From the NCBI GenBank assembly GCA_903900335.1, contig CAIUMP010000033.1:1-64000 (forward strand): a stretch of DNA of 64,000 nucleotides, written 5' to 3'. Position 1 is the stretch's first letter; the number at the start of each line of letters is the position of its first letter. The position numbers were made by a program, and so were the translations under genes. The stretch is from an uncultured Ignavibacteriota bacterium (GTDB lineage Bacteria > Bacteroidota > Ignavibacteria > Palsa-1295). Below are positions 13,063-38,632 of the stretch, piece by piece. The notes below the pieces were generated by a model. It was given only the letters and a program-made list of their open reading frames with translations, had not been told where the DNA came from and did not search any database.

Positions 13063-16000
13063 ATGACTTTCAGCAAGCTGTTTTCCGCTCTGGCTCTCCT
13101 ACTATGTTGTGCCACTTCTGCTTTCGGACAGAACGCCCGCGTCACCCACACCATCACGCGCCAAACCCACGCACCCGCCACGCTCGGCCGCGACCTGTGG
13201 TTCACGATGGTCAAGAATTACGACGATCAGGCGGGGAAGTATTACAACCTCTATGTAACTTCGCCGCAGCAGACGAATATCTACGTGAATTGTGCCAATC
13301 AGGCGACGAAGGTGCTGCCTGTTCAGCCGTACAGCATCGCTTCGTTCAATATCCCACTTGGATGGGAGATCAAAACCAGCTCGATCCTCGATCACAAGGC
13401 TATCCATATCTGGTCGAATGACGGGGATGTCTGCGCATATCTGATGTCCCACAACCCCTACACCTCGGACGGGATGTACATCTTGCCATCCATTGCATGG
13501 GGAGACACAAATGTCGTGGCGGCTTATGGAGCGCTCTATGAAGGCTTTGGGACGTACCAGTACGACTTCCCATCGGAATTCTGCGTCGTCTCAAACCAAG
13601 ACAACACCGTCTGCACCATCACCCCCTCGACAGATCTCCGCATTGAATCTTCGCCACATGCCTGTAAGACCTGCATTGCCCATCCAAAGGGAGTACCGTT
13701 CACGGAAGTCCTGAACAGAGGCGACGCAATTCAGTACTTGTGCCTGGAAGCTCAAGATGCGGAGAACTATGACGTGACCGGCACCGTGGTCACCGCGAAC
13801 CACCCGGTTGGCATCGTCGCGGGCTCGATGTGTCCGAATATCCCTATGGGCTACCCCTATTGTGACCACGTCTGCGAGATGATACCGCCGGTGCGCCTGT
13901 GGGGAAAGACCTACATCTCCGCGCCGTTCTACCCGGCAAATCCCGGCAAGCAGTGGAGCAGCTTCCTTGTCATCGGTACGAAAGCAAATCAAGTAATCTT
14001 CCGCGCGGACCCCACACTCGCGAAGAGTCAGTACTGCATCTTGAGCACGAAGTTTAGCAGCTACCTGCGGCCGGACATCGATCAGGCGAGCATTTGGACG
14101 AGCGATGCCCCTTTCCTACTCGTGCAATATATCAACAGCTCCACCTACCCCGATAACACCACGGCGCAAGGAGACCCAGCGGAAGTTGTGGTACCCGCGG
14201 TGGAGCAGTGGCCAACATTCGTTGTTACTCAGGCTCCGATCAGCATTGGCAACCAGTCGCCCTATAAGAATTACGTGAACATCCTAGTTCACAACGGAGC
14301 GATCAAGTCAACGAAGTATGACGATCAAGGCATAGCGAATTACACACACCTACCGGTCGACAACGACTACTCGGTCTATCGAGTCAGCGGGTCGAAGGCG
14401 GGGGCACATATGGTTACCTCCGACTCCGGCGTTGGAGTCTATACCTACGGCTACGGCTACGACGAATCCTATGCCTGGAGCGCCCCGATGAGCACGGGGA
14501 CGTTCATGTCACCGGATACCAGCGCACCACGCGTCACCGCGACCGGGCAGTGCTTCGCAGCCCACGTTTCCCTGCTGGACAGCGGAGTGAACCAGAGCAA
14601 ACTCGCCTTCATCCGGTTGGACACCATCTACAACATGGCCTACAATCGCGACGACCCAAACTGGGCCGAGGGGCCCGGTCGCACCTCCTCCTATTACGAC
14701 ATGTATGTCCTCGATAGCAGCAAGCCTGCCTTCCTGGGCATCTCCGTCTTCGATGCCGCGGGCAACCGAACGACGATCAGGAGCAGCTATGCGCCGCAGA
14801 TGGCGGTCATTCGGCCGCCCGCGCAGGATTTTGGAATTGGCAACCTGGGAGGAAGACCGGTGTATGCCTATGATACGATCATCAACATCGGCACGGTGCC
14901 ATTCTCGTTCACGGATCTTCGACTGTTAAACGCGGGGGATGGCGTAGGGAAGTCTGGATTCACGGTAGATAGTGCCGTCAAGTCACCTCTGTCTGTAGGT
15001 GAGACTCGAATTATCAAGCTGGCATTTATACCACAAACTGGAGCAACTTCCTTTGATACCATCGTCTTCGGCGATGCCTGCGTCCAGCAGAAGGTGATCG
15101 TCTATGGTAGCGGAGGGGGTGGCGATTTCCGCATCACGGATTACGATTTTGGCATTGTTCCCATCCTCGATGCCTCAAATACAGCGGGGAACAACCACAA
15201 GAGTGACCCCGCAGCAAGATCAACACAACCAGGCACACACATCGTGAACCTCTCGAAGCTTCTTGCGATTGTGATAGATAGTATCTGGACTGACGATCCC
15301 CACTTTGTGATGGATCCTACGCTTACACTACCGCTCAACATCCCAGCCGGCGGCGATCTTGCGATTGAATGCATTTTCACCCCAACAAGTAGTGGCAAGG
15401 TACGGGCACCTTGGCACGCTCATTCGACCTCCATTGACCAGAACGGAGCATCTCTCGGCACCCGCAATGCCATTCTTACCGGCGCTGCCGCAACCTTTGG
15501 TCAGCAATTCTTCCGCGACACGCTGGTTGTAGAGACCTGCCCCACTGGTAACGATTCTGTCCATATCCTGGACACCCTTTTGGCCACCGGCGCGCTCGGC
15601 GCGGATATCGTGAATATCACGCACTCTGCCGCAAACGACCCACGTTGGACGGGCTTCGAAGTGTTCACTCAGAACGGAAGCATCGCGGACTTCAAGAGAA
15701 ATCCAGAGCATATTTCCACTGATGAATTCCTTGTCGTTGTCGAGAACTTCCACCCGCCAGTCGGGGTCACCAAGGCGTACTACGACACCATCACCGCCAC
15801 AACCGCCACTGGTGAGGTTCTGCACGTCCACACCACCATACAGACCGTCTTCCACGGCACCATCGTCACCCCGAAGACCGTGCGCTTTCCCAAGGTGCCC
15901 TACAAGGACCCCGCGCCACCCGCGCAGAGCCTGTACGTCATCAACAGTGCGGATACTGATTTGAACGTCGGATCGATTTGGACTCCTGGACCCGGAAGTA

Positions 16001-16473
16001 AGTATGACGCTGCCTACAAGATCGCCTCTATCACTCCTCCGCTTCCTGCGACGCTACGTCCAGGCCAATCAGTACGCGTGGATATCACATTTGACCCGAG
16101 TTTCAGCCCGGACTCCGATCAGACTTCTCAAATTGAGGTCTACACCGACGCCTGCAACTCTCCGGAGTCAGTCACACTGCTCTCGCAGTCGAATGCCGCA
16201 GGTGTTGCCGCGGTGGATGAAAGCCCGAACATCCGTGTGGAAAGCGCAGATGGTGGCCGGCTGCTTCGCGCCTCGCTCCCATCCTCTTGGAGCGGCCCAG
16301 CACACCTCGATCTCGATAATCTTCTCGGTGTGCATGTGCTAAGCGCACTCGGTATAGAAACTACCGGCGGAGCCACCCAATTCGATGTCCACGGGCTTGC
16401 AAGCGGCGTCTATTTCTACCGACTTACCTGCGGCAGCAATGTTGGCAGTGGGAAGGTAGTGATACAGAAATGA
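13063..16473 (+). CDS. IgGFc-binding-like T9SS surface protein, longest member
   Basis: This 1136-residue protein begins with a signal peptide (MTFSKLFSALALLLCCATSAFG). Residues ~35-475 form the IgGFc-binding-like domain (LGRDLWFTMVKNYDDQAGKY, CDHVCEMIPPVRLWGKTY). The shared linker (FMSPDTSAPRVTATGQCF) and two Ig-like modules follow. An additional ~220-residue stretch (~810-1040, starting near FFRDTLVVETCPTGNDSV) is absent from the other members and looks like further Ig-like/ASH repeats. The tail (ending GSGKVVIQK) is a T9SS sorting domain. No clear Shine-Dalgarno sequence precedes the ATG. The extra module suggests growth by internal duplication and reach further from the cell surface. Ligand unknown. 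Confidence 0.9.
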   Translation: MTFSKLFSALALLLCCATSAFGQNARVTHTITRQTHAPATLGRDLWFTMVKNYDDQAGKYYNLYVTSPQQTNIYVNCANQATKVLPVQPYSIASFNIPLGWEIKTSSILDHKAIHIWSNDGDVCAYLMSHNPYTSDGMYILPSIAWGDTNVVAAYGALYEGFGTYQYDFPSEFCVVSNQDNTVCTITPSTDLRIESSPHACKTCIAHPKGVPFTEVLNRGDAIQYLCLEAQDAENYDVTGTVVTANHPVGIVAGSMCPNIPMGYPYCDHVCEMIPPVRLWGKTYISAPFYPANPGKQWSSFLVIGTKANQVIFRADPTLAKSQYCILSTKFSSYLRPDIDQASIWTSDAPFLLVQYINSSTYPDNTTAQGDPAEVVVPAVEQWPTFVVTQAPISIGNQSPYKNYVNILVHNGAIKSTKYDDQGIANYTHLPVDNDYSVYRVSGSKAGAHMVTSDSGVGVYTYGYGYDESYAWSAPMSTGTFMSPDTSAPRVTATGQCFAAHVSLLDSGVNQSKLAFIRLDTIYNMAYNRDDPNWAEGPGRTSSYYDMYVLDSSKPAFLGISVFDAAGNRTTIRSSYAPQMAVIRPPAQDFGIGNLGGRPVYAYDTIINIGTVPFSFTDLRLLNAGDGVGKSGFTVDSAVKSPLSVGETRIIKLAFIPQTGATSFDTIVFGDACVQQKVIVYGSGGGGDFRITDYDFGIVPILDASNTAGNNHKSDPAARSTQPGTHIVNLSKLLAIVIDSIWTDDPHFVMDPTLTLPLNIPAGGDLAIECIFTPTSSGKVRAPWHAHSTSIDQNGASLGTRNAILTGAAATFGQQFFRDTLVVETCPTGNDSVHILDTLLATGALGADIVNITHSAANDPRWTGFEVFTQNGSIADFKRNPEHISTDEFLVVVENFHPPVGVTKAYYDTITATTATGEVLHVHTTIQTVFHGTIVTPKTVRFPKVPYKDPAPPAQSLYVINSADTDLNVGSIWTPGPGSKYDAAYKIASITPPLPATLRPGQSVRVDITFDPSFSPDSDQTSQIEVYTDACNSPESVTLLSQSNAAGVAAVDESPNIRVESADGGRLLRASLPSSWSGPAHLDLDNLLGVHVLSALGIETTGGATQFDVHGLASGVYFYRLTCGSNVGSGKVVIQK

Positions 16474-16846: not shown

Positions 16847-17707
16847 TCAGTCCTTAACAACCATCACGTTCCTCGTCTCATGCCGCGAGCCACTCGTCGC
16901 CTCGACGTGCAGCATGATCGCTCCTGCGCAATTCATTAGGCCCTTAAGATCCAAACTGTTGCTGCCCGCACTGACTTGCTTGAATGCACGAAAACATTCA
17001 CGGCCCGCCGCATCAAATCCGGTGACGGTAAGACTCGCCATGTCATTCGTATTAACCAACAGCGCACCGCTCACCCCAATCGGATTCGGATATGGCGTAA
17101 CGGTACCGAGCAGAGCCGTGGTTTGTCCGGCATCTGCCACGCCGCCCTGCTGCCCGGGATCCATGTTGTAATAAATGGTGATCACGGCATCCTTCCAGTT
17201 CGAGTAGTCGTGTATGTCCATCGTATTGTGCATGATGTCGATGTCGAAGGAGGAAGCCTTCGTCATGTCCAACATGACCATGTTCGTCGCGCTGGCGGGA
17301 GTTACCTGTATGGAACGCACGATGGATGGGATCTTCGTTCTATCCCACACCAAGTGCGCCGGGTACGTACCTCCGTACAAATGAAATTGATACTGCAGGG
17401 CCCCGTCATTCTGTGGCTTTGGCAGTATGTCGATTCGCGTACCGGTGCTCTGCTGAGCTATGACGCTATCGTCATACGTAAAATACACTGCCCCAGCACC
17501 CGGCGGCCCCCCGAACGCGGGAAAGTCTTCTTCACCAAAGAGCGCATCCTTCCCGTAGGTAGCTCGCGAGTCATAGCCAAAAGTCAGGGTCTGCACAAAG
17601 TCGCTCGTCTCCGAGTAATGCAGCACAAAGCCAAACTCCGCAGACTGCGCCTGCGCGAGCAACGGAGAAACTGCCAAAAGTATTAATCCAACGATCCACC
17701 GATTCAT
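16847..17707 (-). CDS. Secreted protein with T9SS-like C-terminal domain
   Basis: The start is well supported by AGGAGG five bases before the ATG. The 286-residue product begins with a signal peptide (MNRWIVGLILLAVSPLLAQAQ). The middle resembles beta-rich secreted proteins of this phylum (FGFVLHYSETSDFVQTLTFGYD; DDSVIAQ; SIQVTPASATNMVM), and the last ~85 residues (TPYPNPIGVSGALLV... MLHVEATSG... VMVVKD) fit a T9SS sorting domain. It is the last gene of a minus-strand run of five secreted proteins, but a hairpin before it suggests separate transcription. I do not recognise a specific activity. Confidence 0.75.
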   Translation of the reverse strand: MNRWIVGLILLAVSPLLAQAQSAEFGFVLHYSETSDFVQTLTFGYDSRATYGKDALFGEEDFPAFGGPPGAGAVYFTYDDSVIAQQSTGTRIDILPKPQNDGALQYQFHLYGGTYPAHLVWDRTKIPSIVRSIQVTPASATNMVMLDMTKASSFDIDIMHNTMDIHDYSNWKDAVITIYYNMDPGQQGGVADAGQTTALLGTVTPYPNPIGVSGALLVNTNDMASLTVTGFDAAGRECFRAFKQVSAGSNSLDLKGLMNCAGAIMLHVEATSGSRHETRNVMVVKD

Positions 17708-17842: not shown

Positions 17843-20767
17843 TTATTTCGTGAGGGTCATGTGCTGAGTCTGAACAAAATTGCCAGCCTTCATTGTGTAG
17901 TAGTACGTGCCAGCCGGAAGCTCTGTTCCGTTGAACACTGCCTCGTGTGCGCCGGCGGAGACGACCTCGTTAACGAGAGTCGAAACAACCTGACCGAGTG
18001 CATTATAGACTACGAGCGATACTGGAACCTCCTGCGGCACCGTGTAGCGGATCGTCGTCATCTGAGCACCGAACGGATTCGGTACATTCTGCTCGAGTGC
18101 ATAGGTGGCGCCATTCGTCGGTACGCCATCGGCGGACTTCAGAGCAACGACAACCGAACCGAGCGTAGCATCACTGATCGTTACGACACCACCGTTGGTG
18201 GCAGTACCGATAACGTTGCCGCGAAGGTCGCGAACCTCTGCTGTTCCCTGAAGATTCGAGAACGACATCGACACTGGGTAGCTGGCCGACTTGAGGTTGA
18301 CAGTGTATGTCGAGTGATTGTAGCTGATGTTTCCATTGGTCGCTGCAAAGCGTGCATCGAAATCACGGAACGGAGCCGGCATCTCGAAGAAATTCTCTGC
18401 CTGCGAAGTGGAAGCCGCACCGCAATAGAGGCGCTGACCATTCTGATCGGCGTCCGTTACGGTAATGCGAGCAAGCTGACCTTCGAGAGCCATACCGACC
18501 GCTGCCTTACCGGCAGGACCGTCATGCTTCTCGGTCGCGATACGTCCGCTTGGCGGAACCGGTGCGTGCAAGCTATAGAAGCCTGATGCATCAACCTTGA
18601 TGAAGTAACCGCGACCTGGGATGATGAAATTGCTCACATCATAGCCTGTCTGTGGTGTGAACTCCCAAATCGAGGAAAGCAACTGAGGCACCGTCGGAAC
18701 ACCCTGGTTCGGGGTGAGGAGGATGTTGTCCATCGTCGCTGGACCTGTGACGCCACCGATGGTATTCCAACCATGATCAATGTGCACATTGTCAACTGAG
18801 TAGGACTTGACACCCGCGACCGTTCCATCCGGTCCGATGTAATCGCCATAGCGGATCATGTAACCACGGCCAAACTGGAGGTTATCACCAGGAGCCTGGT
18901 TCCAACCGCTGTTCGTGCTGTATGACCACGGCACACCGACTGCGTTCGGGAAGATCACCTGAGCGTTCGGATTCGGAGGCATGACTGGCAAAGAGATCAA
19001 CGTCCAGCTGTACTTCTTGATGAAGGCAGTGATGTTCACGATCGTTGCTGGCGTGTACTCAATGTAGAACGAATTGATGCGGTGATCGGAGATCGTGACG
19101 CAACGGTTACCGTTCTGATCGAGCGTGGCATTACGAAGGTCGATACCTTGCTCCGAGCCATTGAGCGTAAACTTCATCATGATGCGCGAGCCGTCTGGGA
19201 AGTCCTGCGTGTTCACGCAAACCTTCACAGGGTAGCAATTCGGATCACCTGGGCTGAATACAACCTGATAGATCAGGGTGGTATCCGTCAGATCCGAGCG
19301 AATATCGCGGGTAATACCCACAAAGTTCGGATCGAGGAAGCGCGGATCGACCGTGTTGTTAAGTGGCTTGAAGTATGCATAGCAACGCTGGCTAACTACC
19401 ACGTTCGAATCGTAGGCGATAGTGTCTGCAATTGTAACTGGCTTCTCACCATAGAGGAGATCGATACCCTCTGTTGCACCGGCACCGGTACCGAAGGCAA
19501 TCGTGTTCGTGCAAACCGGATTGCAGCTATTGGAAATGTTCAGACGTACGCCCGTTCCCTTACCGCCTGGGGCTGGCTCACTTGGATTCGCGAGGCGAAT
19601 GAAGCGAACAAGCAACTTAGCTGGGTTATTAAGAGCACCATCGCTGGTGAAAGTAACCGTAGCGTAGTAGATTCCCGGTGCGAGGCTTGCCGGATTCGGA
19701 ATGTTGAGGTAGAGTGGTGGTTCTTGTGAACCAAAAGCCGACGTAAAGTCGATCTTCTTGATGTACTGGCACTGCGTGCCACCCACTGCCGAGTTCTGAC
19801 TGAGTACCAGCCAAGAGACGTTCGAGCAGATGTTCACATTATCCAGCTCTGTACCACCGACTCCGTCGCGGATGCCCATCAAGCGAGAGATCGAAGTAGC
19901 TCCTGTTGTAGGATCGTACACAAGATCCGCCGTCAACTGATAATTTGCATTATCAATGGCGTAGATCTGCGAAAGCGGACGAAGGTCGAACGTCGGCTGC
20001 GCTGTCAACTGGACGAGGCCAAAGCCCTTCTTGTTCTGACCGTTCAAGCCGATACCACCGCCAAAGTTTCCATGACGATAGTCGTACGAAAAACCACCAA
20101 TCGCGTTGATCAATGAATCACCAAGGTGATCATTGAAACGAGAAGAATCAAGGCTGATCTCTCCCGCGTTGACCGGGCTCACGTTAACCTTAAAACGAAG
20201 CCAGAGCAATACACCGTTGTTTTCGGTACAACCAGAATCTGATGTATTCGAAAGCGGAAGCGGCGTCGAGCTAGCTCCCGACAAGCGAATGCGATGCAGG
20301 TATGGATTACCCGTCGATACATCAGGCTGATCGCTGAAGTTAACGAAGAACGACTTTGCCATTGCGGTATCTGTCGGTCCAGGACCGATCATAACCACGG
20401 GGCTGCCGTGTGCTGGATTGATATCCAGAACCATCGCCTGCGTCAGGTATGTGAACTGAAATTCGAAACTACGAATAGGCTCCAGGTGCTGCCCGAAGTA
20501 CTGCCCGTTCGTGTTCGGGTTGAATGTTGTGTCAACCTCATTGTAGCACCAAACGGGTACCAGAAAATACCGCTCGCCGCCAGCTGCGGGATAAGGAATT
20601 CTCTGAATGCCGTCCGGGTAGCAATGGAAGTTCCGAAGGGATAACGTCGGATAATACCTAATACCCTGAGGGGTCTGAGCAAAAACCGACGAAATACCGA
20701 GCAGGACTACCAGGACCGCGAGCATCGTTGCTGCTGTCCATGAGCCGTAACGCTTGCGCATGGCCAT
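17843..20767 (-). CDS. Large secreted T9SS protein with a cohesin-like N-terminal region
   Basis: I start at 20767 (MAMRKRYGSW) since AAGGAG lies just upstream; the ATG at 20761 (MRKRYGSW) has better spacing and is equally possible. The product has ~974 residues with a signal peptide ending near SSVFAQ. Residues ~80-230 look like a cohesin-type beta sandwich (IRSFEFQFTYLTQAMVLD, then GVLLWLRFKVNVSPVNAGEI). A segment near 330-400 (LAPGIYYATVTFTSDGALNN) resembles a BACON-like domain, and one near 620-750 (GWNTIGG, GRGYFIKVDASG) is common in T9SS cargo. The end (NVPNPFGAQMTTIRYTV... LPAGTYYYTMKAG) is a textbook T9SS type A domain. Neighbouring genes also encode cohesin-like domains. No enzymatic motif seen. 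Confidence 0.8.
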   Translation of the reverse strand: MAMRKRYGSWTAATMLAVLVVLLGISSVFAQTPQGIRYYPTLSLRNFHCYPDGIQRIPYPAAGGERYFLVPVWCYNEVDTTFNPNTNGQYFGQHLEPIRSFEFQFTYLTQAMVLDINPAHGSPVVMIGPGPTDTAMAKSFFVNFSDQPDVSTGNPYLHRIRLSGASSTPLPLSNTSDSGCTENNGVLLWLRFKVNVSPVNAGEISLDSSRFNDHLGDSLINAIGGFSYDYRHGNFGGGIGLNGQNKKGFGLVQLTAQPTFDLRPLSQIYAIDNANYQLTADLVYDPTTGATSISRLMGIRDGVGGTELDNVNICSNVSWLVLSQNSAVGGTQCQYIKKIDFTSAFGSQEPPLYLNIPNPASLAPGIYYATVTFTSDGALNNPAKLLVRFIRLANPSEPAPGGKGTGVRLNISNSCNPVCTNTIAFGTGAGATEGIDLLYGEKPVTIADTIAYDSNVVVSQRCYAYFKPLNNTVDPRFLDPNFVGITRDIRSDLTDTTLIYQVVFSPGDPNCYPVKVCVNTQDFPDGSRIMMKFTLNGSEQGIDLRNATLDQNGNRCVTISDHRINSFYIEYTPATIVNITAFIKKYSWTLISLPVMPPNPNAQVIFPNAVGVPWSYSTNSGWNQAPGDNLQFGRGYMIRYGDYIGPDGTVAGVKSYSVDNVHIDHGWNTIGGVTGPATMDNILLTPNQGVPTVPQLLSSIWEFTPQTGYDVSNFIIPGRGYFIKVDASGFYSLHAPVPPSGRIATEKHDGPAGKAAVGMALEGQLARITVTDADQNGQRLYCGAASTSQAENFFEMPAPFRDFDARFAATNGNISYNHSTYTVNLKSASYPVSMSFSNLQGTAEVRDLRGNVIGTATNGGVVTISDATLGSVVVALKSADGVPTNGATYALEQNVPNPFGAQMTTIRYTVPQEVPVSLVVYNALGQVVSTLVNEVVSAGAHEAVFNGTELPAGTYYYTMKAGNFVQTQHMTLTK

Positions 20768-20873
20768 TTTCTCCTTGATTGTAAAATTGTTAGGGTTCAT
20801 CATACCTGACAACTAATTGTTCTAATTACACTTTGTTACACACCAAATGGTGTTTTCTTCAATTTTTCTATGG

Positions 20874-22091
20874 CTACGGTCCGACGACCAGCGTACGGAC
20901 GATCTGAAAACTGCTTCCGCGCTTACGCAGAACTACCCTGTAGAGCCCAGCTGTGGTGCCTCTCGGAATCTCTATCTCCTTCAGCAACCGCGCGCTTTCG
21001 AAGCACACTGCACCTAAAGGGTCGTAAATTTTGACTGAATACTCTGCCTCATCAGGAGGCACGATTGTAAATCTTGCACTTGTCGGGTTTGGAAACACCT
21101 CGAAGCTTCCCGAACCATAAAACTCGTTGACGCTTAGCTTTCTAAAAGCTCCATAAAGCGTAATTGAGTCGATCAGGTAATCGATGCTTCCACGCAAAGA
21201 GCTACTATTTGTAGCAATCCAGTGAGCGGATTGGAATACGGTGGATTCTGTATCCGTACCAACAAGGGCGGTGAATGAAAGCCAGAGAACTGTATCTGAC
21301 CCCATTATTCGCTGACCCTTCGCCAATAAATTGACGTCTACGTTGCCCGACGTACTCGACAAGGAACCGATGCCCACATCCGAAGACTCCTTCGTGGAAG
21401 CTCCCGTGAACAAAAGTCTTTGTACATCATACGAAAAGCTAAACCTTGCGGACTGTGTGCCTGCCCTTGAAATGTCTGAAAGCATCACAGGCACGACGGT
21501 CTTCACAGAGTCGGCCGTGTAACCATCGCTTTGTCCATAAATGATGACTCTTGGAATCGTAACAGCCACATGCCCAGAAGCCTGCGGCGTCCTCGCCCAA
21601 CCGTCCACTTCCTCGATGCTATCGATGCCGTAGGACGAATCACCAAACATTGCCACTGATTGATCCCAACGAAGCCATGCGGTGTCACTCAATTTGGAAT
21701 TCAGAACCGCCTTGAGTCTAAATAGAACCGGGTTTGCAAGGTCGATTTCCTGATTCGACTGGCCCGCAGCCAAGAAGCCGATCACAGAGGGAGAAATCGT
21801 GTCCAAGATGTATAGCAACGATGTTGCCGTACCCGAGGTCTCAATACTCACTACGTGAATTAGGCTGGAATCGTATATCAGACGAGCGATTAGACTTCTA
21901 AGATTGTGCGGCTTTGAGCCGCTCAAATCATATCGCACACCGATCGTTACCGAGTCACCTGCATTACCTGAGATCCTATCCACTGAAGCACGGAAGATGT
22001 TAAGTCCCTGTGCCTCGGAATCGCTTGAAAAAGAGATAACCGAGAGGACTACTACTGCTCCGATCAGGAATCGCAATATCCTCTTAGCCAT
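20874..22091 (-). CDS. Secreted protein with two cohesin-like domains and T9SS tail
   Basis: The 405-residue product has a signal peptide (MAKRILRFLIGAVVVLSVISF...EAQ). Residues ~28-180 read as a cohesin-like fold: NAGDSVTIGVRYDLSG, then LIARLIYDSSLIHVVSIE, then VLFRLKAVLNSKL. Residues ~185-320 repeat this pattern (VKTVVPVMLSD, SARFSFSYDVQRLLF, DTVLWLSFTALVG). Residues ~325-405 are a T9SS sorting domain (GSFEVFPNPTSARFTI... AGLYRVVLRKRG). Known cohesins bind dockerins in cellulosomes and related assemblies; the next gene upstream (22162) carries dockerin-like repeats, so a partner relation is possible but unproven. It lies 61 bases beyond the gene ending at 20874 on the same strand. Confidence 0.75.
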   Translation of the reverse strand: MAKRILRFLIGAVVVLSVISFSSDSEAQGLNIFRASVDRISGNAGDSVTIGVRYDLSGSKPHNLRSLIARLIYDSSLIHVVSIETSGTATSLLYILDTISPSVIGFLAAGQSNQEIDLANPVLFRLKAVLNSKLSDTAWLRWDQSVAMFGDSSYGIDSIEEVDGWARTPQASGHVAVTIPRVIIYGQSDGYTADSVKTVVPVMLSDISRAGTQSARFSFSYDVQRLLFTGASTKESSDVGIGSLSSTSGNVDVNLLAKGQRIMGSDTVLWLSFTALVGTDTESTVFQSAHWIATNSSSLRGSIDYLIDSITLYGAFRKLSVNEFYGSGSFEVFPNPTSARFTIVPPDEAEYSVKIYDPLGAVCFESARLLKEIEIPRGTTAGLYRVVLRKRGSSFQIVRTLVVGP

Positions 22092-22115
22092 AGATTGTCA
22101 AAGAACGATTTGCTA

Positions 22116-22150
22116 TTATATCCGGCGCGCGAACCGTGCGCCGGATATAA
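22116..22150 (-). terminator. Strong stem-loop downstream of the gene at 22162
   Basis: Perfect 13-base arms (TTATATCCGGCGC / GCGCCGGATATAA) enclose a 9-base loop, 11 bases after the stop of the minus-strand gene at 22162 and 24 bases before the ATG at 22091. Position and strength fit a terminator or mRNA-stabilising hairpin; the T-run is short (TATAAT). Confidence 0.6.
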
Positions 22151-22161
22151 CGAAGCTTGGC

Positions 22162-24078
22162 TTAGCGTACTACCTGCATCTTCACGCTCTGCGTGAAGTC
22201 CGGCGTTACGATCTGATAATAGTAGAGCCCATTGGCAACTACATTTCCATTGGCATCGCGGCCATCCCACTCAACGGTGTTGTAGCCAGCAGCGCGGTAC
22301 TCATTACCTACCAGGTTACGAACTTCATGACCGAGCATGTCAAACACGCGAAGAGTCACGTTCTCTGAATTCGCAAGCTGGAATCCGATCGTCGTATGTC
22401 CAGAAACACTCGCCAGGAAAGGATTCGGTACGTTCTGATCGAGTGAGTTCACAGTAACGTTGTTACCGCCAACACCCGAAAGCTTGAGTGCGACTGTCGA
22501 GCCCGGCATGTCACGGTCGTTGACCTGGACACCACTCAGTTCGAAAGCTGCGTTGCTCTTGTTCGCCACGTTGAACTCCAAGTAGCCGACCGTAGCGCCA
22601 TCCTCGTAGTTACCGCTTGTTGCAAGAGTAACCTTACCGGTAGATGCATTCGCAAAGATACGGCTTCCGTTCGTTGCGCGTGTGCCGACAAATTGAAGAT
22701 CATTGCTATTGATACCCTTGACATTCATCTCCAAGGAGAGTGGACCATTCACGTTGCCACGAACAGTTACTGGTACGAGGAGGGTATTGCCGTTCATTAC
22801 CACATTGGCCGCATCCGCCACGATACCCGATACGTCAGTGGACTTAATGTCCGACGACTTGTATCCTGGCACCGGCAGACCTGCTGGCCAAGGAAGCACT
22901 GGCAACTTCGCTGCGAGATACATCATGATGTAAGCCGCATCGTACGAGGTGCAATAATAGAAGTACGCGCCGTATGTTGGATTATAGACGCGACCTGTGT
23001 GATTCGCGTCGCCATGGAAGGCAGCGTGTCCTTCAACCGAATCCAAAGGAACATTGTTGGCACGCGACTTCAAAATGAGGTCCGCATCCGTTAATGTCAC
23101 GAAGCGATTCTGGTTATTACGAACCGTCGCACTTGGGTTGTAGATCTGATCGAGGTTCACATCACCATCGCCCCATTGAGCGAAGTTACCGCGACCCTGC
23201 GGAACGATCTGGATCGCGCGACCAGGAAGGCACGTCGCTGGTGGCCAGCAGGACGAACGCGCCGTCGTGTTCAAGCGGGTAGAGTCGCCATTGAACGTTG
23301 TTGAAGCAAACAGTGCATTCATGTGCGTGAATCCCGCGGAGTCATCTGCACCAACTGCTGCACCAACCGTTTGTACAGTCGAGCCGAAACCGATCGGACC
23401 GTACTGAAATTCAAAGGTAGCACGCTTGTCTGGAATCGCCACATCGTTTGCGAGGGGGTTCTCCAGAATACGGAGCTGGAAAGAAGCTATCGAATTCGGA
23501 TTCGTCTTGTCCAGAATGTTCAGATCCTTCCACTCAATCGTGAATGTGTGGATCATCGAACCTGGCAAAGAATTCTTGTTCGTATCCGGCACGGCCGTCG
23601 TTGAATAAGAGATCCTTGTCGGACGAAAACCCGGCTCGAGTGTGCGATAGTAATGGTCACCCCAGAACGGCGCAAGTGTTGCGTTCGGCGAGGTAGAGGT
23701 GAATAGGTTGTTGTTGTTATTCGGTGTGACGGCAATCGCATGATTACCGACGCCGACCCATCCATTCACGTTCACGTTGACCGTGCTGTAAAGGTTACCA
23801 TTATAGTCAAAGACAAAGCCAGTTGGCAGGCCCTGACTATTTGGCCCGGTGTAGGTTCCGTCATCATGATCGGCCACCTGACTGAAATTGAAGAACGAGT
23901 CAGCCGGAAGCAGATTCGCACCCGCGAGCGGGTTATAGAACTGATTCACGTACTGCACCGCGTAATTAGCCCAAAGAGGCGCAACGCCAGCCTGCTGCGC
24001 TTCGCTCTTGGTAGCCCCGCCGGCCACTCCCAAAAAGAGTGCGGCACTGGCGACGAGTAACCGTTGATAAAGTTTCAT
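22162..24078 (-). CDS. Secreted T9SS protein with dockerin-like repeats and a cohesin-like domain
   Basis: The ATG at 24078 gives a signal peptide (MKLYQRLLVASAALFLGVAG) and an AGGAG sits 10 bases upstream; longer frames run into the previous gene. The product has 638 residues. Residues ~40-290 form a secreted beta domain (GSMIHTFTIEWKDLN). Two dockerin-like repeats follow: GDGDVNLDQIYN with VTLTDADLILKSR (~296-335) and HGDANHTGRVYN with SYDAAYIMMYLA (~350-390). Each has an unusual insert between the calcium-loop part and the helix. Residues ~405-530 look cohesin-like (LLVPVTVRGNVNGPLSLEMN, YLEFNVANKS). The tail is a FlgD/T9SS domain (NVPNPFLAS, YNTVEWDGRDANG). A scaffold or surface-assembly role is inference. 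Confidence 0.75.
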   Translation of the reverse strand: MKLYQRLLVASAALFLGVAGGATKSEAQQAGVAPLWANYAVQYVNQFYNPLAGANLLPADSFFNFSQVADHDDGTYTGPNSQGLPTGFVFDYNGNLYSTVNVNVNGWVGVGNHAIAVTPNNNNNLFTSTSPNATLAPFWGDHYYRTLEPGFRPTRISYSTTAVPDTNKNSLPGSMIHTFTIEWKDLNILDKTNPNSIASFQLRILENPLANDVAIPDKRATFEFQYGPIGFGSTVQTVGAAVGADDSAGFTHMNALFASTTFNGDSTRLNTTARSSCWPPATCLPGRAIQIVPQGRGNFAQWGDGDVNLDQIYNPSATVRNNQNRFVTLTDADLILKSRANNVPLDSVEGHAAFHGDANHTGRVYNPTYGAYFYYCTSYDAAYIMMYLAAKLPVLPWPAGLPVPGYKSSDIKSTDVSGIVADAANVVMNGNTLLVPVTVRGNVNGPLSLEMNVKGINSNDLQFVGTRATNGSRIFANASTGKVTLATSGNYEDGATVGYLEFNVANKSNAAFELSGVQVNDRDMPGSTVALKLSGVGGNNVTVNSLDQNVPNPFLASVSGHTTIGFQLANSENVTLRVFDMLGHEVRNLVGNEYRAAGYNTVEWDGRDANGNVVANGLYYYQIVTPDFTQSVKMQVVR

Positions 24079-24137
24079 GGGTCTGATACTCCTAGAAAGT
24101 TGACGTATTAAACTTTGTAAATCGTTTCGTTGAACTC

Positions 24138-24169
24138 GCCACCCGCAACACTTGTGAATTGCAGGTGGC
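24138..24169 (-). terminator. Stem-loop downstream of the giant beta-helix gene
   Basis: GCCACCCGCAA pairs with TTGCAGGTGGC across a 10-base loop with one mismatch. It lies 13 bases after the stop at 24183 (minus strand) and is the probable terminator of the 1969-residue gene. No strong T-run follows on the minus strand. Confidence 0.5.
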
Positions 24170-24182
24170 TTGTTCTTTAACT

Positions 24183-27100
24183 TTACTGACGATTTAAGAT
24201 CATCTTCTGCGAAGAAGTGAAGCTGCCGGCGGTCATCTGTACGATGTACGAGCCGTTTGCCATTTCCTGGCCGTTCGCATCCGTACCATCCCACGTTACT
24301 GGGTAGGTGCCTGGATCAAGCTGCTCTCCGACGAGCGTACGGACCAGCGTACCCTTCACGTCGTAGATCGCGATACGAACTGTCGAGCGCTCGGCAACCG
24401 AGAAGTCGATCGTCGTTGCCGACGAGAACGGATTCGGATGGCTTGGCTCAAGAGCGAACTTGCTTACTGGAGCTGCCGTCTGCTCGACACCGCTATTCGC
24501 AGGTACGAATACGATGAGCGCATTAGCAAGCTTCGAGTCACGAACTCGCATGACCATGGAGTCGGAGCCTACGCGAAGAAGCGTGTACAAGCTCGGATCA
24601 ACTGGGCCACCACCGTTAAACATGTTCACAGAGAATTCCTGTGGGTTCTGCGGATGACGGAGATAGAAGTGACCCGTCTTGAACGTACCGGCTGGAAGCT
24701 TCGCAGGATCCATGCAGGACGGTCTCCAGCAGATGTCCATCGGGAACAGGTTGCCAGACTGGCCACCTTCGTTACCGGATTGGAACTTGACCTGCCAGGT
24801 GATCGGCGCATTGCCCGTCGTTACGTCACGACGAATGTCAATGTACGTACCTTCGATCTGACCACCGATCGGCAATTCCCAACGTGCATCGAAGACACCA
24901 GCGTACGGAGACGGCGGCACTTCCATTTCGCAATAGCGAATGTCAAGCGAGTCCGTTCCAAAGCGGCCTGCTCCGAAGCAGAGGCGCTGGACATCCTGTA
25001 AAGGATGCGTGGCCGTGATGACGTTATAGACATCAACGAAGCAAGAGAAGGTAGGCGCATCACCGATGTGAATTGCGTACACGATCTCGTTCGTGTTACC
25101 CGCTGCGTCTGTCACCAAGAGATGTACAGAGTCGGCTGGCGGAGGATTCGTGCTGAAGTAAGAATCATCCTTGTTCGGCGTCGAGCATACATGGATGGTT
25201 ACCGTGTCATTGCTCAATGTACCAACGGCCGTGCCTGGGGTAACCTTATAGGCTGTATCCAGGGACGTGATCGTGATCGTCTCAATGCAACCTGGGCGGA
25301 GGAGGTCCTTATCCTGAACCTTTACGCTATCGCAGAATGCAATGTGATTGGTTACGCAAATGTCATGCGGTCCCTTCACGAATGACGGCGGATGCTGCAC
25401 GCTGTCCACGCTAAGAAGAAGCGTCTTCCACGTCGTAAGATGGCACTGATCCTGAACAACGATCATGACCGTGTCCTGTGAACCGCAATTCGTCGTCGCG
25501 GTGCGAGGAGCGTCAGAGATCAACGGTGTACCCGTGAGTACTCCTGAGTAAGGATCAATGTGCAACCAACGTGGCGTCGTACCAGTCAGGAGGGTCTTAC
25601 CCACTCCGTAGTTAGGATCACGGTAGACCGTCTGCGTGTCACCCTCGTAAACGAGCTGATACGTGTGATAGTCGGCGTAGTTAGGATCGTAGATATTGAT
25701 CTTCGTTACCTTCGTGGTATCTTCGAAGTTCAAGCTATAATCGAAACCTTCCTTCGCGTCCGGAAGCGTGTCGGTCGTTATCGCAGGGGCGATGTTGACC
25801 TGAACATTCCAACGGGACACGGACTTGCCGGTGTGACCGTCATGCGCCTCGACTGCGATGATCGTATCGAAGTTCAACTCGCCATTTACCTGAGGCGTTG
25901 GCGTGAGGAGGTTCTTTACTGCATAGGCAGAGTCAATGCGGACATTGATAATACCCTTCTGCGTAAAGTTCGCGGCGCGCGAAGCTGGGCTAAGCGTGTC
26001 GATCTGACCATACTTACCCGAACCAGCATCAAACTTCATCCAAGACGGACGCGTAAGGAAGCGATAGCTCGTGCGACCATAACGGAAGTCCCATGCCTCT
26101 GGAGTCTCTGCGGCTGCAGCAGCGTCCTCAGCTTCGTCGTCCGTATTGATGTCATACGTATAGCGCAGGGAGTCTGTCAAGCTCGCCCAGCAAGCCGGAG
26201 GGGCCGTGCTCGTGAAGCGTGGAAGACTATCCATAACGAAAATACGGAAGTGGTATGTCGTTGCTGTAGAGCGTACACAAAGCGTATCTGGCTCAAAACC
26301 TGGCTGTGCACAACCTGGCGTATTCCAGTTCATGTACGGCGGGAATGACCAAAGGCTCAGCTGAAGGCTGTCTGCACCGAGTGCGGCACCAAAACCGGCA
26401 TTACGCAATGCCATTTCGGAAGCGGAGTTCGGTGGGAAGTTTGTCACTGTTGCAGTGACGCCTTCGCCCGAAGGTACTACGTCAGCGTTGTGCGGCTGGC
26501 CAGTCAATAAGACATAACCATTAGAGCCGATAACGTTCTGGTTGAACACCGTTGACTGCTTGAGCCACTTGTAGAGACGAACGTGGTTCGTATCTGGGTC
26601 GCCCGGGAGCAAGTCATACGATACGTTGTACGCCAACTGGGTGTACATTCCCTGATTGAACAGGAAGCGTGGATCGTAGAAATTGTTCGGATCATAGCCA
26701 CCAACGCGGAAGAGCGTGTGCGCGAGATCACTTGCATCGTAGTTGACATCCTCGTGGATGAAGCGACGATTTGGCTGATACTGATCCGTCGCAAGGTTCG
26801 GGATGTCGTTGGTGAACTGCGGCGCAGATACGTCACCGATCACGAACTGAAGACCATGCGATGTGGCATACTGTGCACCATACTTCCAAAGAAGCGTACG
26901 GCTAATGACAAGGATCTTGTCGCCTGGGCGCACTGGAAGCGTATGATAACGCTCGCCTGCATACCATGTGCTCGTGCCGAGGACACCCTGATTGCAAATC
27001 GTGTCACCTGCTGTCGTTCCCATCATGTCCGAAGGCGCGAGTGAGTACTGACGGCCGTCAAGAGCCGCAGAATCCTCAAGCTTCGAAGCACGCTGGATCT

Positions 27101-30092
27101 CGAAATAGGACATCGTCGCTGGACGGAGGAGCGAAAGCGTGTACAGTGCCTTCTGACGAGAGAAGAATGTACGCTTTGCGATCGTTGAATCCGGTACGAA
27201 GTCAAGACGTCCCTGATAGATCTGCTGCGGACCAAGACCCTCGTCCTGAACCGTCTCCTTAGCATTGACGCGGACGAACTCGCCGGTGGTCGTATTCTGT
27301 ACGATGAGCACCGAGAAGTTACGTGCGTAGTTGTCGCGATTGCTGTCAACCGTCGAAACGTCAGCCTGCAGGAAGAGCGGATAGCCGATCGGATGCGGAC
27401 CAGTCATATCTGTCTGGTATAGATCGATCTTGCTAACATACGTCGGATCTGTATTGAAGATGTCGCGAGTCCAGCGATGCAGGCGAACCACATCACTTGG
27501 CAAACCAAGCGAGAATGCTTCGGCCGGAGCCATACGGCGGTTCGCGTAGTCAGCGACCTTCATGTCGGTACCCTGATCATAGAGGTCATACACACGACCT
27601 TCCATGAGAAGCGTATCTGGAATCTGTCCGATCGGAGCCGGCGTGTAGGACGACGGCGGATTGCGGTTCGGCTCATAAACGTTGCCGAAGCAGCCCTTGT
27701 AGAAGTCCAGGAAGAATGTCGCCTGCTCGGAACCCGTCGGAGGATTGATCTGAGTAAGGATGCCAGGACCCGTCTCACCCCAGAAGAGGCCACGAAGGGT
27801 ATCTGCACCACTACGTCCAGAGAGCGGAGCTGCGCTTGGTAAGCGGAGAATATAACGAGCGGTGTTGTCGTAGATAGCATCGCCGCGTGAGTTAGACTCA
27901 TAGGACGGAAGCCCGCCTTCGAAGTCACCCCAGATCGTTGCACTTGCGTTGACATCCTCAGGATTCGAGATACCCTTGAGGGCACCCGATGTATTGAGGT
28001 CAACTGCTGCGGAAAGGATCGAGTTACCCGTCGTGTGGTTATTCGCGATCAAGCAGAGATTCGAAAGAATTCTCATGTCGTAAGTCGCGCACCACAGTGC
28101 CGAACCGGAGTAAGCATAATTCTGCTCCATACGGACACGGCTGAGAATCGTGGAGTCGGCAGATGTTGTACCACCATTGCTGATGTACATCGCACCACCG
28201 CGACCATGTGGGTTGCCACCAACGTTCGTGAACAGTACCGCTGAGTCAGCAGCTGTGCCGAGATAGCAATGGTTGTTCAAGAAGCGCGTGAGCTGGCGTG
28301 GGTCGAACGGATACGGCGTAGCCGTGATGTTCTGAGCATTAAAACCGTCTTCTGCCCAATAACGGCTGACCGCATTGGCATTACCTGAAGTTGTCGGCGC
28401 ATAATCCAAAACCGCACCACCGTTACCACCCTGTACAAAGTTGCCCGTGTACTCAGTAGCGAACGTGGAGTCGTCGCGACCAACGTATTCTGCGCCGCCG
28501 CCCTCAACCATCAGGCCATAGGTTGCGTGTGCATTAATACGCGGGTCCGCGCAATTCACGCTGTTCTGCAGATACCACACGCGACGATTAACGATCGCTG
28601 GGTAACCACTTCCGGCTGTGCTCAAGTAAACCGCACCACCGCCGACACCGGCGACGTTGTTGAAGTACTTAACGCGCATTTCAACCGGGTAAGCGCCACC
28701 TGGCCACGGGAAATTCTGAGGAGCAAGGTAGCCCTTTACGAAAATTGGGGAGCTCGTATAGATAGCGCCGCCCTTATAGTAACCGACGTTACCGTTGAAC
28801 GAGATCATGCCAGAATCACGGATACCCGTGCCAGACATAATGTTCTCTGCGTCGATATTAAGGTAAGGATAGGAAACGCCACCAACGAAGTCGATCTGAA
28901 TTGCACCGCCGAGACCGGCGACGCAACCGTTAAAGCTAGCGGTCTTGAGAATCGTCAAACCCGCCGTGATCGTACCCGGCGTTGGCTGCGGCAACACACC
29001 ACCGACTGGCGGAGGAAGATTGAAGCCTGGCTGAGCCGAAGTGGAACTGAGCGCGATAGCACCACCCCATGTATTGAGGTCAAGCGACGGATGCGCCATG
29101 ATCGCCGAGTCATTGTTGAACGTCGCGCGCTCGATGACAAGACCGGTCTTAGTACCGACGTAGATCGCACCGCCCTTAGCGAAATTGCTTGCGCCGCCCG
29201 TGTTGTTTGCCGAGCAACGCTCGAAGAGCATCACGTCCTGGCTGTCTGCGAAGAATGGTCCCTTCTGGTTTCCGAGGAAAGCCGTAAGATAGGTAGCGCT
29301 CGCACCACCATTGGATGCCATGTAGATAGCGCCACCCAAGGCATTGACGTCTGGATACGCGCCACCGCCGGACTCACCGTTGTAGCAACGAGTGTCGCGA
29401 ATGGTAAGGCGACGCACCTGGCTGTTAGCCAAAGCTAGACGACCATCGTCGTTCGGGAAGTACGAATTGACGGGAGCCTGTAAGAATGCAAAGGCACCAC
29501 CGCGATAAGAAGTCTGGCAGCTATCAACGATAGCATCCTCGATCCAGGTCTTCGCCGAGAAGGTAGTAATGACAGCGCCATTACCATTCGCAGCATTGTT
29601 GATCGCCTGTCCGTTTGCAGCCTGCTGGCCGACCGTACCATAAAGGAAGGTCACGTCAACGGATGTGCGCTTCTTGAAAAGCGCAAAACGAACATTCGCA
29701 AAGAAGCACGAATCCGCACCAGGAAGGATCAGGAAATGACCCCACTCGTACGAATTTGGGTTGACCGACTCGCCACGAAATTGAATTCGGCGATTCAGGC
29801 CTGTAAACCCGTTTGCGATGATCTTGCCGCCGGTCGAATCAATGATTCGGCTGTTTGGCAGGAAGTGGACTTCGGCACCTTCCATAATGATCAGTGTACC
29901 GGCGACATGGTAGTCACCGTCGATCTTATAGATGGTATCCAGAGCAGAATTACCGGGAACCCTGGGGTAGAACACCTTGGTCTGTCCGGCATTAAGATAT
30001 CCACTGATATGCGGAAGCCACTGGGCCCCCGCCTGGCTCGTAAGACCCGCAAGGCCTAAGAGCACAATAAACACGGTCAAGAAACGTCGCAT
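24183..30092 (-). CDS. Giant secreted right-handed beta-helix protein with T9SS tail
   Basis: The ATG at 30092 is preceded by GGAGG at good spacing and opens a signal peptide (MRRFLTVFIVLLGLAGLTSQ). The product has 1969 residues. Residues ~60-850 contain many short repeats with GGAIY or GGAVY motifs (AKGGAIYVGTKTGLVIERA; YKGGAIYTSS; GVGGGAVYLST), the pattern of a parallel beta-helix with a polymorphic-outer-membrane-like look. Residues ~1380-1650 contain cadherin/Ig-like segments (DPYSGVLTGTPLISD; MIVVQDQC). The tail (LEPSHPNPFSSATTIDF... YPVTWDGTDANGQE) is a FlgD/T9SS domain. It is the first gene of the minus-strand surface-protein run. Adhesin or structural role is inferred; no catalytic motif is apparent. 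Confidence 0.82.
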   Translation of the reverse strand: MRRFLTVFIVLLGLAGLTSQAGAQWLPHISGYLNAGQTKVFYPRVPGNSALDTIYKIDGDYHVAGTLIIMEGAEVHFLPNSRIIDSTGGKIIANGFTGLNRRIQFRGESVNPNSYEWGHFLILPGADSCFFANVRFALFKKRTSVDVTFLYGTVGQQAANGQAINNAANGNGAVITTFSAKTWIEDAIVDSCQTSYRGGAFAFLQAPVNSYFPNDDGRLALANSQVRRLTIRDTRCYNGESGGGAYPDVNALGGAIYMASNGGASATYLTAFLGNQKGPFFADSQDVMLFERCSANNTGGASNFAKGGAIYVGTKTGLVIERATFNNDSAIMAHPSLDLNTWGGAIALSSTSAQPGFNLPPPVGGVLPQPTPGTITAGLTILKTASFNGCVAGLGGAIQIDFVGGVSYPYLNIDAENIMSGTGIRDSGMISFNGNVGYYKGGAIYTSSPIFVKGYLAPQNFPWPGGAYPVEMRVKYFNNVAGVGGGAVYLSTAGSGYPAIVNRRVWYLQNSVNCADPRINAHATYGLMVEGGGAEYVGRDDSTFATEYTGNFVQGGNGGAVLDYAPTTSGNANAVSRYWAEDGFNAQNITATPYPFDPRQLTRFLNNHCYLGTAADSAVLFTNVGGNPHGRGGAMYISNGGTTSADSTILSRVRMEQNYAYSGSALWCATYDMRILSNLCLIANNHTTGNSILSAAVDLNTSGALKGISNPEDVNASATIWGDFEGGLPSYESNSRGDAIYDNTARYILRLPSAAPLSGRSGADTLRGLFWGETGPGILTQINPPTGSEQATFFLDFYKGCFGNVYEPNRNPPSSYTPAPIGQIPDTLLMEGRVYDLYDQGTDMKVADYANRRMAPAEAFSLGLPSDVVRLHRWTRDIFNTDPTYVSKIDLYQTDMTGPHPIGYPLFLQADVSTVDSNRDNYARNFSVLIVQNTTTGEFVRVNAKETVQDEGLGPQQIYQGRLDFVPDSTIAKRTFFSRQKALYTLSLLRPATMSYFEIQRASKLEDSAALDGRQYSLAPSDMMGTTAGDTICNQGVLGTSTWYAGERYHTLPVRPGDKILVISRTLLWKYGAQYATSHGLQFVIGDVSAPQFTNDIPNLATDQYQPNRRFIHEDVNYDASDLAHTLFRVGGYDPNNFYDPRFLFNQGMYTQLAYNVSYDLLPGDPDTNHVRLYKWLKQSTVFNQNVIGSNGYVLLTGQPHNADVVPSGEGVTATVTNFPPNSASEMALRNAGFGAALGADSLQLSLWSFPPYMNWNTPGCAQPGFEPDTLCVRSTATTYHFRIFVMDSLPRFTSTAPPACWASLTDSLRYTYDINTDDEAEDAAAAAETPEAWDFRYGRTSYRFLTRPSWMKFDAGSGKYGQIDTLSPASRAANFTQKGIINVRIDSAYAVKNLLTPTPQVNGELNFDTIIAVEAHDGHTGKSVSRWNVQVNIAPAITTDTLPDAKEGFDYSLNFEDTTKVTKINIYDPNYADYHTYQLVYEGDTQTVYRDPNYGVGKTLLTGTTPRWLHIDPYSGVLTGTPLISDAPRTATTNCGSQDTVMIVVQDQCHLTTWKTLLLSVDSVQHPPSFVKGPHDICVTNHIAFCDSVKVQDKDLLRPGCIETITITSLDTAYKVTPGTAVGTLSNDTVTIHVCSTPNKDDSYFSTNPPPADSVHLLVTDAAGNTNEIVYAIHIGDAPTFSCFVDVYNVITATHPLQDVQRLCFGAGRFGTDSLDIRYCEMEVPPSPYAGVFDARWELPIGGQIEGTYIDIRRDVTTGNAPITWQVKFQSGNEGGQSGNLFPMDICWRPSCMDPAKLPAGTFKTGHFYLRHPQNPQEFSVNMFNGGGPVDPSLYTLLRVGSDSMVMRVRDSKLANALIVFVPANSGVEQTAAPVSKFALEPSHPNPFSSATTIDFSVAERSTVRIAIYDVKGTLVRTLVGEQLDPGTYPVTWDGTDANGQEMANGSYIVQMTAGSFTSSQKMILNRQ

Positions 30093-30393
30093 AGTACCTC
30101 CATTAGTGCGAAGGAAATGTGACGGCTTCGCGCTCGCTTTACTTGCGCGTCCGTCCCTAATCGTTAAATAACTTGTCTCGTCGCCACCCGCTGAACTTCT
30201 CGCAGATCGCGAGTCACTCGGCAAAACGGTCGTGTCAAAAAATTGCATATCCAGTTTCGTATGGAATCGAGTTATGGCTACTAATTCGCTACGATTGCTT
30301 CGAAGCATAGTCGCGCCCGCTTTTGCGATCACGCCTGGTGCATCTCTGCAAATCTGTTTTCAATACACTCTAAAAATATTTCGCTCTCTGTCT
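30093..30393 (-). other. Long leader/spacer upstream of the beta-helix gene
   Basis: About 300 bases separate two minus-strand genes. I see no gene here. An AT-rich stretch around 30345-30385 could hold the promoter of the gene starting at 30092, which would give it a leader of ~250 bases; no riboswitch or clear hairpin was recognised. Confidence 0.45.
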
Positions 30394-31131
30394 CTACAGC
30401 TCGACGTTAAGCTTCAACAGCTCACGTCGTGCCGCGTCATCGAATTGCGTCGATGGATACACTTCTGCTATTTCGCGATAGATGCGAATGGCATCGTCAC
30501 GCTTGCCGCCCTGCGGCTGATCGTAGTCCCGAGCCGCAGCCAAAAGGTAATCGGCATTCAACGGATTGCCCTTGTCCCGGCGTGCGGCTGACTCTAATAA
30601 CTTCGCTGCTTCGATTTTGTTACCGCTATGTTCTAAAATAGCTGCACGTCCCGCCTCAATAGAAGCAAGGACGAGCGGGTAATCACTGGAAGCCTTATCA
30701 AAGGCAATGCCAGCACTGTCATAATTGCCAAGCGCGTAATACGCATTGCCAAGAGCGAGAGCGGCTTGGCTACCAGCCTCTGTCGATCCAAATTCGCGGA
30801 CGATATAGCTCAGCCCGTAAACGGGGTCGCCCTGCACCCGGCGCGTCATGTCGCCATCAATGGCCCGGCGATACTCACCCTGAATACTATAAGGAAGCAC
30901 TCGAGAGAGATACGTAGCAGCGTGCTCGCTATTGGTCTTACGCTGACCGACATACCACAAAATGCCTACGACGATGGCAACAACGCCAAGACCGATCATT
31001 CCGACCGTGCGCTGATTGCCCATGGTCCAATCGCGGATGCCCTCATAACGCAGAAGGAGCTTCTCCGTCTGCGTTAAGCGCTCTACCGTCGGCTGCTGAA
31101 CTTCAGCTAGATCTTTTTGCGATCGAATCAT
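30394..31131 (-). CDS. Membrane-anchored TPR protein (YfgM/TPR_21-like)
   Basis: The 245-residue product has a short cytoplasmic N-terminus, one transmembrane helix at ~43-61 (VGMIGLGVVAIVVGILWYVG) and then TPR repeats to the end (ALALGNAYYALGNYDSAGIAF; RAAILEHSGNKIEAAKLLESA; AIRIYREIAEVYP). This is the layout of YfgM-type proteins that act beside the Sec translocon or in envelope quality control; the exact role here is inferred from architecture only. It sits between the surface-protein run and a tRNA gene. Confidence 0.75.
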   Translation of the reverse strand: MIRSQKDLAEVQQPTVERLTQTEKLLLRYEGIRDWTMGNQRTVGMIGLGVVAIVVGILWYVGQRKTNSEHAATYLSRVLPYSIQGEYRRAIDGDMTRRVQGDPVYGLSYIVREFGSTEAGSQAALALGNAYYALGNYDSAGIAFDKASSDYPLVLASIEAGRAAILEHSGNKIEAAKLLESAARRDKGNPLNADYLLAAARDYDQPQGGKRDDAIRIYREIAEVYPSTQFDDAARRELLKLNVEL

Positions 31132-31195
31132 TCGTTGTTTCTAAAAACCCTCGTCTAATGTCGTTGTTCTACTTTGCTACTCTTCAAATTCTCAG

Positions 31196-31269
31196 TGCGC
31201 CCGGAAGGACTTGAACCCTCAACCTTTGGAACCGGAATCCAACGTTCTATCCAGTTGAACTACGGGCGC
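31196..31269 (-). tRNA. tRNA-Arg (anticodon CCG)
   Basis: Read on the minus strand the 74 bases fold into a full cloverleaf: acceptor stem GCGCCCG/CGGGCGC, D arm GTTC...GAAC, anticodon stem TTGGA/TCCAA with loop TTCCGGT (anticodon CCG, decoding CGG), and T arm GAGGG-TTCAAGT-CCTTC. The discriminator base is A and CCA is not encoded. Confidence 0.93.
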
Positions 31270-34484: not shown

Positions 34485-34635
34485 TGTTGTCTCAATTAGT
34501 GTGTAGAACACCGCATCTTAAAACGGGAACATTGATCGTGAAAGAGAACACGACGCTTCACAGAAAGTTACAATTGTGAGAATGGGCTTTCGCCGGAATC
34601 ATTTCTCGCCCACATTTCTTTTCACCGTCGCAATT

Positions 34636-34724: not shown

Positions 34725-38632
<3,908 letters not shown>

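Follow-up and report, generated by a model that had tools for sequence, protein, structure and literature searches.

A dockerin with inserted calcium loops beside cohesin-like domains in a conserved gene cluster of T9SS proteins in Ignavibacteria

Cohesin and dockerin modules hold cellulosomes together. Few known protein contacts are as strong as those of cohesin-dockerin pairs, which also serve as engineering parts. In Ruminococcus flavefaciens, the dockerins ScaA Doc and CttA XDoc carry inserts of 12-13 residues in the second calcium loop and retain calcium and cohesin binding; the CttA inserts brace the adjoining X-module and help the complex to withstand force (PMC5934362, PMC4266597). For Ca. 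Stygibacter (Cloacimonadota), T9SS-linked cohesin and dockerin proteins have been predicted and anchoring through the C-terminal domain has been proposed; this organism has a scaffoldin of 3,755 aa with carbohydrate-binding modules as well as dockerin-bearing enzymes (PMC8542988). Many reports describe cohesins and dockerins outside cellulosomes, those of ANME proteins among them, and find them variable between close relatives (PMC9012536; also Peer et al. 2009, as cited in PMC9012536 and PMC8542988).

The locus described here lies on contig CAIUMP010000033.1 of an uncultured Ignavibacteriota bacterium (assembly GCA_903900335.1, class Ignavibacteria), of which positions 1 to 64,000 (the window) were analysed. 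Like the type III dockerins ScaA Doc and CttA XDoc, the dockerin of its protein P0003 consists of two EF-hand-like asymmetric repeats with a calcium-loop insert. Unlike them, it has inserts in both loops, that of loop 2 reaching up to 112 residues in the family, and its putative binding to a cohesin would start from a T9SS surface protein that includes a nidogen-like domain, not from a cellulosomal scaffoldin. As in Ca. Stygibacter, a T9SS occurs together with cohesin and dockerin proteins; the differences are the lack of enzymes, the single dockerin and the syntenic five-gene cluster. With the non-cellulosomal cohesins and dockerins the locus shares a use outside cellulose degradation, whereas in contrast to those variable cases its gene order is kept over a large part of the class. 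The closest fold to the P0003 cohesin is a Clostridium perfringens cohesin-like module (2jh2, Z 10.3; 2w1n, which derives from a glycoside hydrolase, Z 9.9) at 9% sequence identity. T9SS-linked cohesins and loop-insert dockerins are already known, separately. New is their combination, in which inserts occupy both loops, enzymes are lacking, a single dockerin was found and synteny extends across the lineage; our literature search found no paper describing this five-gene cluster.

Gene cluster, T9SS tails and cohesin folds

A preliminary description of this DNA had pointed to three adjacent open reading frames for T9SS proteins with cohesin-like and dockerin-like domains. All three are present as it described them (P0001, P0002 and P0003, Table 1) and lie on the minus strand, but its boundaries were too short: the real unit is a five-gene cluster at 17843-31131, which continues upstream on the same strand with the genes of a giant protein (P0004) and a TPR protein. 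The gaps between P0004, P0003, P0002 and P0001 are operon-like (71-107 bases). Signal peptides were recognised by eye on all four secreted proteins, P0001 to P0004. Relatives of P0004 match Chlamydia PMP repeats, which points to a beta-helix-like part.

Concerning export, the T9SS tail profile TIGR04183 (cut-off 23 bits) is passed by P0001 (33.1 bits) and by P0003 and P0004 (25.3 bits each). The tail of P0002 is divergent and scores 21.5 bits, slightly below the cut-off, so that the T9SS tails earlier ascribed to all three proteins hold above threshold for P0001 and P0003. A PorU-type T9SS sortase is encoded in the same genome (687 bits, cut-off 420), and T9SS export is supported. A viral structure library returned only T9SS tails and Ig-like domains of viral proteins and gave no lead; the PHROGs search was empty.

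Table 1. Features of the five-gene cluster (window coordinates; residues are those of the respective protein)
Feature	Position	Strand	Description or basis
P0001 (974 aa)	17843..20767	-	Closes the cluster; signal peptide and N-terminal cohesin fold, then further domains (some Ig-like) and a T9SS type A tail
P0001 T9SS C-terminal domain (residues 886-974)	17846..18112	-	TIGR04183, 33.1 bits; PorZ fold match, Z 10.0
P0001 cohesin fold (residues 38-255)	20003..20656	-	Z 11.4 to 5nrm/3ul4 (AlphaFold2 model); carries insertions that classical cohesins lack
P0002 (405 aa)	20874..22091	-	Two cohesin-like segments, divergent T9SS tail; fastest-evolving of the cluster
P0002 cohesin-like segment 2 (residues 197-301)	21189..21503	-	phmmer match to solved cohesin 5nrm, weak, E = 0.06
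P0002 cohesin 1 (residues 35-152)	21636..21989	-	Best stretch for PF00963
P0003 (638 aa)	22162..24078	-	Signal peptide, N-terminal nidogen-like domain, dockerin with inserted loops (judged from sequence), cohesin fold, T9SS tail
P0003 T9SS C-terminal domain (residues 541-638)	22165..22458	-	PorU fold match, Z 11.8
P0003 cohesin fold (residues 413-536)	22471..22842	-	Z 10.3 to 2jh2, Z 8.8 to 6kge
P0003 dockerin (residues 302-400)	22879..23175	-	Loop 1 ligands D306/N308/D310/D331; loop 2 ligands D357/N359/T361/D380
Calcium loop 2 insert	22957..22992	-	12 residues here, 12-112 in the family; orthologue alignment
Calcium loop 1 insert	23104..23145	-	14 residues here, 11-16 in the family; orthologue alignment
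P0003 nidogen-like domain (residues 30-295)	23194..23991	-	NIDO matched in 11 of 72 orthologues
P0004 (~1970 aa)	24183..30092	-	Surface protein, T9SS tail, beta-helix-like and Ig-like parts; conserved in the cluster
TPR protein (245 aa)	30394..31131	-	Opens the cluster; TPR repeats and, by eye, a single transmembrane stretch

Together, P0001, P0002 and P0003 contain four cohesin-like domains, two of them in P0002. The first P0002 segment passes the cut-off of Pfam Cohesin (PF00963; 34.3 bits, E = 3.2e-8, cut-off 24.1), and the same profile is matched at E 0.01 in 9 of 68 P0002 orthologues. The second segment of the pair that had been proposed is weakly supported, by the phmmer match and by a weak match of the family profile to Scaffoldin C (residues 178-272, E = 0.011). 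The sequences of P0001 and P0003 give no match to PF00963, and their domains are therefore classed as cohesin folds only. As folds, the single segments that the earlier reading had placed in each of these proteins were borne out by AlphaFold2 models with a mean pLDDT of 85 (P0001) and 84 (P0003). The P0001 domain superimposes on type I cohesins over 128 of 141 residues (Z 11.4, rmsd 2.5), and its top seven structural matches are solved cohesins throughout (Z 11.2 to 11.4). The P0003 domain gives a middling superposition on 2jh2 (Z 10.3, 117 of 134 residues, rmsd 3.3) and also matches the cellulosomal-type cohesin CaCohA2 (6kge). Wrong folds would have spoken against the earlier reading; both models contain a cohesin fold. 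By hhalign, the P0002 family aligns with the P0001 cohesin (84% over 45 columns) and has no match to the P0003 cohesin family.

Cohesin-like domains are found in five other places of the same genome (L001, L002, L003, L005, L006), mostly right before T9SS tails; at L005, an IgGFc-binding-like part is joined with apparently three cohesins. Given their presence in other T9SS proteins of the genome, these domains may be general-purpose modules or spacers.

The dockerin region of P0003

Unusual inserts within dockerin repeats had been suggested for P0003 from its letters, and both ligand conservation and an insert-removal experiment in silico support this. In the window the repeats read GDVNLDQ..[14]..FVTLTDADLIL and GDANHTG..[12]..YCTSYDAAYIM. 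Among 72 orthologues the family pattern is WGDGDADxSQ-[11-16]-FVTxNDARxILRS followed by GDVNHNG-[12-112]-xVNEYDAALIxxYxxxRxPxLPW. Ligand positions 1 and 12 are Asp in both loops of all 72 orthologues, position 3 is mostly D/N and position 5 mostly S/T/N/D; loops unable to bind calcium, which would have undermined the earlier reading, are not what these conserved ligand positions suggest. In the AlphaFold2 model the loops are followed by helices (residues 329-340 and 378-388); of the inserts, that of loop 1 adopts short helical stretches and that of loop 2 folds into a beta-hairpin. P0003 has the two calcium-ligand repeats (positions 1, 3, 5 and 12, then a helix) that mark a dockerin (PF00404).

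Standard searches nevertheless miss this region. Pfam Dockerin_1 (PF00404) matches none of the 72 natural P0003 sequences at E 0.01, and when the dockerin region was searched in its natural form, neither Pfam nor the profiles gave anything significant, the best PDB match being an EF-hand protein (E ~0.5). Foldseek and VIA-align with the whole P0003 model yielded no dockerin among the matches listed, because the tail and cohesin domains occupy the list. After removal of both inserts in silico, by excision at loop position 6/7, Dockerin_1 matched six of six orthologues with 22.8-43.4 bits (E 1e-4 to 3.9e-11). Five of these exceeded the cut-off of 22.9, and the window's own P0003 stayed 0.1 bit under it at 22.8. 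The response was graded in the two sequences followed: no match when uncut, 16 bits with loop 1 cut, 36-38 with loop 2 cut and 42-43 with both cut. When both loops were cut out of register, with four insert residues kept in each, the score was 13-16 bits (two sequences), and none of four ligand-preserving shuffles matched. The excision points were picked from the motif, which introduces some circularity, bounded by the shuffles and the mis-register control. Since excision restores the matches, we attribute the failure of Dockerin_1 on natural P0003 to the inserts. Judged from its sequence, P0003 carries a real dockerin that calcium-loop inserts hide from standard searches, and Pfam-based surveys overlook insert-bearing dockerins of this kind.

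No other dockerin was found in the window's genome, and conventional dockerins were not found in six genomes of its family, this one included. Conventional dockerins do occur elsewhere in the class, in other families. One genome has a second insert-dockerin in an open frame of 1785 residues (G132:C11:584-1027). A second dockerin protein of 460-500 aa (L143:814-2295 (-), L145:844-2265 (-)) occurs in many genomes of the class and consists, by eye, of a cohesin, a dockerin, a cohesin and a T9SS tail; it was not found in the window's family, where the counterpart in the window's own genome is unconvincing (best E 0.002).

Cohesins and a dockerin in one cluster recall a cellulosome-like scaffold gathering enzymes, and a T9SS-linked complex of that type has been proposed in Ca. 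Stygibacter (PMC8542988). For the present cluster we consider this extremely improbable. Neither a glycoside hydrolase nor a peptidase nor a carbohydrate-binding domain was matched in the five genes, and dockerin-bearing enzymes were not found in the genome. Because the cluster has no matched enzyme and the genome only one dockerin found, we rejected its identity as a cellulosome.

Conservation across the class and the candidate partner

A profile search with the P0003 family identified 80 related loci, in genomes recorded under names such as Ca. Kapaibacterium, Ignavibacteria, Chlorobiota and Bacteroidetes. Gene order and strand are identical in all 67 loci in which the five genes are readable, down to 25-30% identity, and the slot of P0002 is filled in nearly every genome despite its fastest divergence. 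The insert-dockerin is present in 96 of 391 genomes of the class, nearly always once, and a P0001 orthologue in 99 (E <=1e-80; the next match, at 7e-46, is sharply set apart). From the overlap of these two lists, 95 genomes have both, five have one and 291 have neither; in the five discordant genomes, coordinates and frame lengths suggest that the gene sits close to the end of a contig or directly at it. Within the window's own order the cluster was found in 11 of 11 genomes searched, including all ten that are >90% complete with low contamination. All 33 positives of a phylum sample belong to this class. The five-gene cluster occurs in about one copy per genome and is restricted to part of one class. 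On contig BPHJ01000001.1 (Kapabacteria, KatS3mg039) it appears twice, in opposite orientation (L113, L119). The P0003 gene of L119 is broken into two frames, and the genes next to it score the same as those of L112, the copy of another genome; a mixed assembly is therefore possible.

Among the domains of the three proteins, conservation is highest in the dockerin (50% mean pairwise identity, versus 26% for the adjoining P0003 cohesin), which fits a conserved contact surface. The P0002 cohesins evolve fast, the second one being at 14% identity, and this is unusual for a conserved binding partner and a point against docking. The very fast divergence of P0002, together with the further cohesin-like domains of the genome, most of which precede T9SS tails, would suit another explanation, namely that the cohesin folds are plain beta-sandwich spacers of T9SS cargo, that the dockerin is calcium-stabilised and has lost cohesin binding, and that other contacts hold the surface structure. 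We regard this as rather unlikely, as the dockerin helices and ligand positions are the best-conserved part of the three proteins across the class, and the only dockerin found in the genome adjoins cohesin genes in an arrangement kept wherever the locus is readable.

Moreover, pairwise distances of the dockerin were compared with those of other domains by partial correlation, controlled for the nidogen-like domain, the middle of P0001 and two tails. The value for the P0001 cohesin was 0.18 (2 of 500 permutations), a weak signal and one of five tested; the others ranged from -0.08 to 0.06. This hints at, and does not prove, the cohesin of P0001 as the best candidate partner of the dockerin. For P0003's own cohesin the value was -0.05, no correlation beyond that with other domains. 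It bears on the distinctly unlikely alternative that the dockerin packs inside its own chain, on the nidogen-like domain or the adjoining cohesin, as a calcium-stiffened spacer like an X-module/dockerin pair and with no outside partner. Dockerin and cohesin are indeed direct neighbours in P0003, an arrangement that recurs among further dockerin proteins of the class (L142, L143, L145), and inserts of such length could reach other parts of their own chain, as in CttA XDoc (PMC5934362, PMC4266597); the linker at residues 404-413, with a pLDDT below 50, speaks against such packing, as does the missing correlation.

Proposed surface assembly and neighbouring genes

Starting from the modules, gene order, co-occurrence and conserved calcium-ligand positions observed, the explanation we favour, and to which we give an even chance, is that the cluster makes a non-enzymatic, T9SS-exported, calcium-dependent surface assembly in which the P0003 dockerin would plug into the cohesin of a neighbouring gene. 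The four secreted proteins would cross the outer membrane via T9SS, be processed at their tails and be exported together. Outside the cell, calcium would allow the P0003 dockerin to fold and to dock in a neighbour's cohesin, most likely that of P0001 and next that of P0002. The loop inserts may brace the dockerin or set a single binding orientation, as proposed for the insert-bearing dockerins of R. flavefaciens. The parts exposed for adhesion or as structure would be the giant, beta-helix-like P0004 and, on P0003, the nidogen-like domain. A wider proposal is possible, though doubtful: a calcium-clipped outer structure built from T9SS cargo, with the single loop-insert dockerin as its clip to one of several cohesin proteins, may be a core trait of the Kapabacteria-type lineage and put cohesin and dockerin to a structural instead of an enzymatic use. 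If true, a cohesin-dockerin pair can serve as a core structural clip of the cell surface, and new engineering parts would become available. Through this cluster, the cell surface of a largely uncultured lineage becomes accessible to concrete work.

The cluster is followed by a gene for a secreted-looking protein of 286 aa without Pfam match (16847-17707, -), which among 20 neighbourhoods compared is present only in the window's own family. Further along, two paralogous genes lie side by side at 9492-12167 (+) and 13063-16473 (+); each encodes a T9SS protein in which an IgGFc-binding domain was matched, with E values of 4.5e-53 and 4.9e-49, respectively. Directly upstream of the cluster lies a tRNA-Arg(CCG) at 31195-31269 (-), and a TPP riboswitch at 34633-34734 (+) precedes apparent thiamine genes.
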